In this document: in pieces, positions 595 through 759 of the stretch
Position numbering within the stretch: the first letter of the stretch is position 1
Layout of the letters: each line of letters starts with the position of its first letter
Virus record (IMG/VR): IMGVR_UViG_3300043775_000927
Span: 26,246-90,245 of that record
Length of the DNA stretch: 64,000 nt
Direction: 5' to 3' (one strand)
From: a virus
Translations under genes and position numbers: made by a program
The notes under the pieces: model-generated
Seen by the model: only the letters and a program-made list of their open reading frames with translations
The model's database searches: none
Told to the model about the DNA's origin: nothing

Positions 595-759
595 TTGATA
601 ATACGCCAACGGATCAGACTACGGTTCGAAACGTTGACAAATGATACGGTAAGAATTGATCCAGACTAACCTGCGATGGTTAGCACCCGATGAGGGTGTA
701 ATAGCAAACGGTGATAAGGCTACCTATTGGTCATTGTTGGTCCGTTGGCGTATTATCAA
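595..759 (+). ncRNA. structured RNA closed by a 19-bp perfect stem
   Basis: Bases 595-613 and 741-759 are exact reverse complements (19 bp). The enclosed 127 nt contain a 6-bp hairpin (666-671/678-683), directly followed by a 5-bp hairpin (684-688/694-698), a stem 699-704/724-729, and an alternative GGATCA/TGATCC pairing (611-616/657-662). No long ORF with a ribosome site fills it and it is not a tRNA. Phage T4 also encodes small stable RNAs of unknown role in its tRNA cluster, so a stable RNA is a reasonable inference. It is expressed from the promoter at 551-579 and lies 2 nt upstream of tRNA-Ala. Confidence 0.7.

Follow-up and report, generated by a model that had tools for sequence, protein, structure and literature searches.

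Genomic setting of the element

The sequence analysed here, a 64-kb window, comes from a viral record of 90 kb that belongs to a T4-like phage with a UvsX-like recombinase, a phrog_262 DNA polymerase and a structural protein sharing 66% identity with cyanophage S-RIM50. A near-identical 146.6-kb record was found (L013, G001); we refer to the source as a freshwater T4-like phage. The first 6.5 kb of the window is a cluster of ~20 tRNA genes, within which the element described here lies between tRNA-Ser(GCU), which ends at 541, and tRNA-Ala(UGC) at 761-836, and is transcribed in the same direction as the tRNAs (the element, its promoter and its parts are all given on the plus strand). It is bounded by two arms, at 595-613 and 741-759, that are exactly complementary over 19 bp. 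A sigma70-type promoter, TTGACT-17-TATTAT, is located at 551-579, and in the alignment its position and its distance to the element are conserved in both other variants found at this location (L009 and L010, TTGACT-17-TAAGAT). Judging from the -10 position, transcription would start at ~586 and produce a short leader (586-594), ACTAAATAGAATAC, which is conserved in the same three variants. The tRNA-Ala gene starts one base past the stem, and its RNase P site probably sets the 3′ end of the RNA. The perfect stem, the promoter just upstream and the tRNA-Ala directly downstream, as given in a preliminary description of this locus, are all present.

Other parts of the cluster also merit annotation. 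Positions 1141-1213 read by eye as a likely tRNA-Met(CAU), GCTGGTA...TATCAGCACCA, which was missed by ARAGORN and gives a weak match to the tRNA-Sec model, and a further tRNA at 1304-1370 was found by Rfam only. Two more stem-closed stretches, at 1003-1045 and 1495-1577, both contain the motif ACACAATTTGWGCC, and neither is a recognised tRNA.

A previously uncatalogued RNA family at two sites

No ORF of more than 24 aa lies within the element, and Rfam gave no match at the gathering threshold, in agreement with the earlier impression that no reading frame or known RNA family fits. Relaxing the search to E-values up to 10 (Rfam 15, positions 575-762) returned only chance-level snoRNA matches. 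A retron ncRNA was also considered and rejected, as no reverse transcriptase (RVT_1) was found in G000, G001 or G018 in searches whose controls were positive.

Pattern scans of IMG/VR converge on the same ~20 contigs, which carry 8 distinct sequences, with one copy of the element per genome. These homologues match the full covariance model of the element at E = 4.5e-39 or better, those used to build the model doing so by construction. No homologue was found by blastn in GenBank phages or plasmids, or by pattern scans in ~85,000 bacterial and archaeal genomes (GTDB genome contigs), where the 16 stem-pattern matches are about the number expected by chance. Just one genome match received a model score (L077, 25.9 bits), and it is a plain GCCAACGG hairpin that lacks the core; the pattern matches L004, L043, L044 and L046 lack it as well and were discarded as chance. 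The element is neither an artefact nor a member of a known family; it represents a previously uncatalogued family of non-coding phage RNAs of ~165 nt, within the broad kind of non-coding RNAs of phage tRNA clusters.

The homologues occupy two sites. Site 1 (Ser/Ala) comprises the window, L009 and L010, each with the conserved promoter before the element and tRNA-Ala after it. At site 2 (Cys/Asn; L036-L042, L045, L047-L049 and L050) the element always follows tRNA-Cys (an Rfam tRNA match at L045:2055-2126, with the Cys identity read by eye) and, except in L050, adjoins tRNA-Asn downstream; a conserved promoter precedes tRNA-Cys, with no clear -10 box in L050. The distance from promoter to element is 15-43 nt at site 1 and 82-110 nt at site 2, where the promoter lies ahead of tRNA-Cys, and the gap between the element and the next tRNA is 1-4 nt in the window, L009, L010 and L045 (2 nt in the last). 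Directly behind the element of L050, at L050:3857-3973, we noted by eye a ~105-nt stretch with an imperfect closing stem of ~16 bp, TTGAGAGATACACTAT/ATAGTGTGTCGCTCAA, which is possibly another stem-closed RNA.

Because both sites are promoter-proximal, the main rival to the trans-acting RNA that we favour below is an element acting in cis on transcription of the tRNA unit. It would then head a tRNA transcription unit that is not translated, either as an antitermination RNA or as a stabiliser at the 5′ end of the tRNA precursor. Untranslated arrays of this kind are naturally targeted by Rho, and HK022 put and Bacillus EAR are RNAs that make RNA polymerase ignore terminators; both resemble the element in being promoter-proximal structured RNAs in a phage or operon leader. 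Its place, first or second among the RNAs behind a conserved promoter at both sites, and the sequence conservation of its core would suit such a function. However, independent sites number only two, tRNA-Cys comes first at site 2, no clear -10 box is present in L050, the element is missing from other tRNA-rich relatives such as L018, and the comparison with put and EAR, made through Rfam, gave no match and showed no resemblance to either. We consider a role in cis possible but unlikely.

Structure of the closing helix and the core

The 19-bp arms form the longest perfect inverted repeat in the window (span up to 260), the next longest being 13, and in 100 Markov windows no perfect inverted repeat exceeded 15. 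Once G-U pairs are allowed the closing helix, P1, extends to 23-24 bp; in the window it has about 23, with its 5′ strand at 595-617 (19 perfect pairs plus four with G-U) and its 3′ strand, from pairing and covariation analysis, at 737-759. In the alignment of the 8 distinct sequences, where P1 has 24 pairs, 97.9% of P1 cells are paired and two-sided changes occur at 7/24 pairs (17 cells), a count to be read in the light of a small family in which sequences at one site owe many of these changes to common ancestry. Pairing falls below 57% when the partner strand is shifted by 1-3 columns, and for the structure as a whole none of 500 shuffles reached the observed two-sided cell count or covariation score. 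The outer pairs differ wholesale between sites (TTGATAATAC/GTATTATCAA versus ATTACTATTAC/GTAATAGTAAT versus AATACTTTTAC/GTAAAAGTATT), both arms having been rewritten at site 2 with pairing kept. The inner 5′ strand, GCCAACGGAU, is invariant, and the inner stem as a whole is near-invariant, its sole mismatch being in L010. Towards its inner end a U-G pair (columns 21/170) is invariant and columns 24/167 hold a mix of G-C, A-U and G-U, a series that points to pairing of the plus-strand RNA rather than a DNA palindrome. Loss of pairing in related phages had been named beforehand as an observation that would speak against a stable RNA; the relatives instead retain pairing through two-sided changes, which supports that proposal as far as the existence of an RNA gene is concerned.

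The preliminary description had further regarded the 127 nt enclosed by the stem as a well-folded core, which our analysis does not support. Compared with its shuffles, the element as a whole is much more stable (z = -7.2) because of the closing stem, whereas the window core alone (614-740) has a z of -0.80, with 46/200 shuffles folding at least as well, and z lies between -0.66 and +0.66 across all seven variants tested. The core is conserved in sequence without unusual stability. An invariant GGUUCGAAACGU stretch at 621-634, identical in the 8 distinct sequences, contains a small hairpin with an octaloop (ACG-GUUCGAAA-CGU). A variable hairpin at 666-683 bears a T-loop-like loop of the UKCRAU type (UGCGAU in the window and UUCGAU in others, compared by eye) and is followed by a second variable hairpin, CACCC-GAUGA-GGGUG, at 684-698, which is absent in L045 and enlarged in L040. 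A conserved 3′ hairpin at 713-728 reads AUAGG-NNNN-CCUAU in most variants and has one A-C mismatch in the window. A tentative long-range helix may join 640-645 to 730-735 (columns 47-52/160-165), and in 3 sequences one of its pairs shows a two-sided change; adding this helix, the hairpin around GGUUCGAAACGU and the 3′ hairpin raises the two-sided pairs to 8 in total. An inner helix at columns 139-143/162-166 was dropped because the long-range helix is better supported, but minimum-energy folds prefer other inner pairings over the latter by ~2-9 kcal/mol. The internal helices are ambiguous, and among the competing pairings is one in which the conserved UUGAUCC at 656-662 could pair with GGAUCA of the P1 5′ strand, replacing the P1 extension.

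A nearly uninterrupted helix of 23-24 bp, with an outer stem that is free to vary provided that pairing stays, could also be read as a processing signal, that is, an RNase III site which separates the transcripts of the tRNA cluster and encloses mostly spacer. An invariant core and a near-invariant inner stem would not be expected of spacer, and tRNA ends do not require a neighbouring RNase III site, which makes a mere processing signal improbable in our judgement.

Mosaic history

The outer stem, the core and the variable hairpins have incongruent relationships. L010 at site 1 and L037 at site 2 share 98% identity in the core and 98% in the variable part but only 68% in the outer stem; core identity is 94-98% when the window and L010 are each compared with L037, and the core of L009 (site 1) is close to those of L045 and L050 (site 2). 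G018 and G019, which both carry an L045-type element at site 2, have a DNA polymerase only 45% identical to that of the window phage. These 8 sequences are suggestive of a history, in our view the simplest, in which cores moved between loci or phages and each outer stem stayed with its locus.

Two insertion sites, and discordant histories of the core type, the variable hairpins and the outer stem, would also be in keeping with a small mobile or recombining cassette with the inverted repeats as its ends. Such a cassette seems very unlikely given that there is one copy per genome, that the outer arms differ between sites, unlike the terminal repeats of one element, that the invariant U-G pair leaves no DNA inverted repeat beyond 19 bp, and that G000, G001 and G018 encode no reverse transcriptase.

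Comparison with Y RNAs and other phage RNAs

The ORF at 7310-8734 encodes a Ro60-like protein (DUF2828/DUF7788 in Pfam, phrog_850). Its phage relatives are annotated as Ro-like, and the best PDB matches of its structural model (pLDDT 68) are Thermus phage phiLo Ro60, a TROVE domain, Deinococcus Rsr and vertebrate Ro. Directly upstream, at 6538-7290, is a tandem array of ~7 Y-RNA-like units built on the plan GGAUxxx(U)UCAGCAA ... AUCCUGUU (in common GGAU...CAGCAA...AUCC). The unit at 7116-7222 holds a tRNA-like module of the YrlA type, and 7149-7213 scores 42 bits with the YrlA model, below its 69-bit cut-off. Similar arrays were found ahead of the Ro-like gene in L016, L017, L018 and L025; in L021 and L022 fewer units match.

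Since a Ro60-like protein is encoded in the same genome, we considered whether the element could be its Y RNA partner. In bacterial Y RNA/YrlA (RF02553) the two ends of the molecule pair in a long stem that closes a domain with tRNA-like features (PMC8394870), and the element likewise has its ends paired in a long stem and has T-loop-like loops. In contrast to YrlA, it has no YrlA-type tRNA-like module (575-762 gave no match to the YrlA covariance model at E-values up to 10), and its occurrence is independent of Ro60. The 174-kb G018 carries the element without a DUF7788/Ro match, in a search that did find Ro in G001, and G005 has Ro without the element, although these records may be incomplete; in L018 the element is missing although Ro, a YrlA-like RNA and a tRNA cluster are all present. 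Moreover, the phage has its own Y-like array directly before the Ro gene, with a GGAU...CAGCAA...AUCC plan that is missing from the element. Membership of the YrlA class was rejected, and we regard a Y RNA partnership with the Ro60-like protein as extremely improbable.

The closest precedents in setting are T4 RNAC/RNAD and GOLLD/ROOL, with homology shown for none of them. T4 RNAC and RNAD (species 1 and 2 RNA), annotated as misc_RNA of 139 and 119 nt, are late expressed and of unknown function (PMC9697503; PMC3014915). Like the element they are small non-coding RNAs among the tRNA genes of a T4-type phage, and RNAD abuts tRNA-Arg, but neither has a long closing helix. Homology to either was rejected, as the covariance model of the element gave no match in the T4 tRNA locus (L053). 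T4 RNAC (L053:1909-2047) ends in a T-arm-like hairpin, CCGGGUUCGAAUCCCGG, and so also appears to have a tRNA-like part. GOLLD and ROOL are structured RNAs of phages and prophages, often near tRNA islands and of unknown function (PMC12286853); they are highly ornate and several hundred nucleotides long, whereas the element is ~165 nt and has no Rfam match.

Discussion

The covariation and position of the element indicate an RNA structure under selection, placed flush with tRNA genes at two sites and behind a promoter. On balance, and with slightly better than even confidence, we interpret it as the gene of an untranslated RNA that is cut from tRNA precursors, protected by its blunt stem and active in trans in the manner of T4 RNAC/RNAD. 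This reading as a whole draws on the covarying P1, the invariant GGUUCGAAACGU, the kept promoter, the tRNA-flush position and the lack of an ORF, and is favoured by cores that remain 94-98% identical although the polymerase of L045-type phages is only 45% identical. Set against it are a core that is not unusually stable, ambiguous internal helices and a small family. In addition, the nearness to a promoter at both sites is compatible with a cis element as well, and RNase III could act on a helix this long, which would then be cut rather than protected.

As to the molecular function of the RNA, we infer the following route. The RNA would be transcribed as part of a tRNA precursor, with its 3′ end generated by RNase P cleavage at the next tRNA and its 5′ end by the transcription start at site 1 and by 3′ processing of tRNA-Cys at site 2. 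The near-blunt double-stranded end would keep exonucleases and RNase E off, allowing the RNA to accumulate as tRNAs do; the exonuclease block put forward in the preliminary description is compatible with a near-blunt stem that abuts tRNA processing sites. The invariant core would then act in trans, with protein binding as its most likely mode, which would make the RNA a counterpart of RNAC/RNAD. A more speculative possibility, to which we give limited credence, is a modular RNA, horizontally exchanged and trans-acting, whose invariant core passes between distant T4-like phages while the outer stem, a replaceable protective clamp, stays with each tRNA locus. It would control a host factor in the course of infection, such as RNA polymerase, the translation machinery or a defence nuclease that targets tRNA.

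Since T4 RNAC and RNAD it has been known that phage tRNA clusters contain small RNAs, and these two are still without a known function. The family described here is compact, its closing helix is defined, its core is invariant and it counts ~20 instances, so that structure probing, pull-down and deletion experiments should be straightforward to design. That a shared core should be combined with a locus-specific outer stem is evolutionarily unusual for a small RNA.
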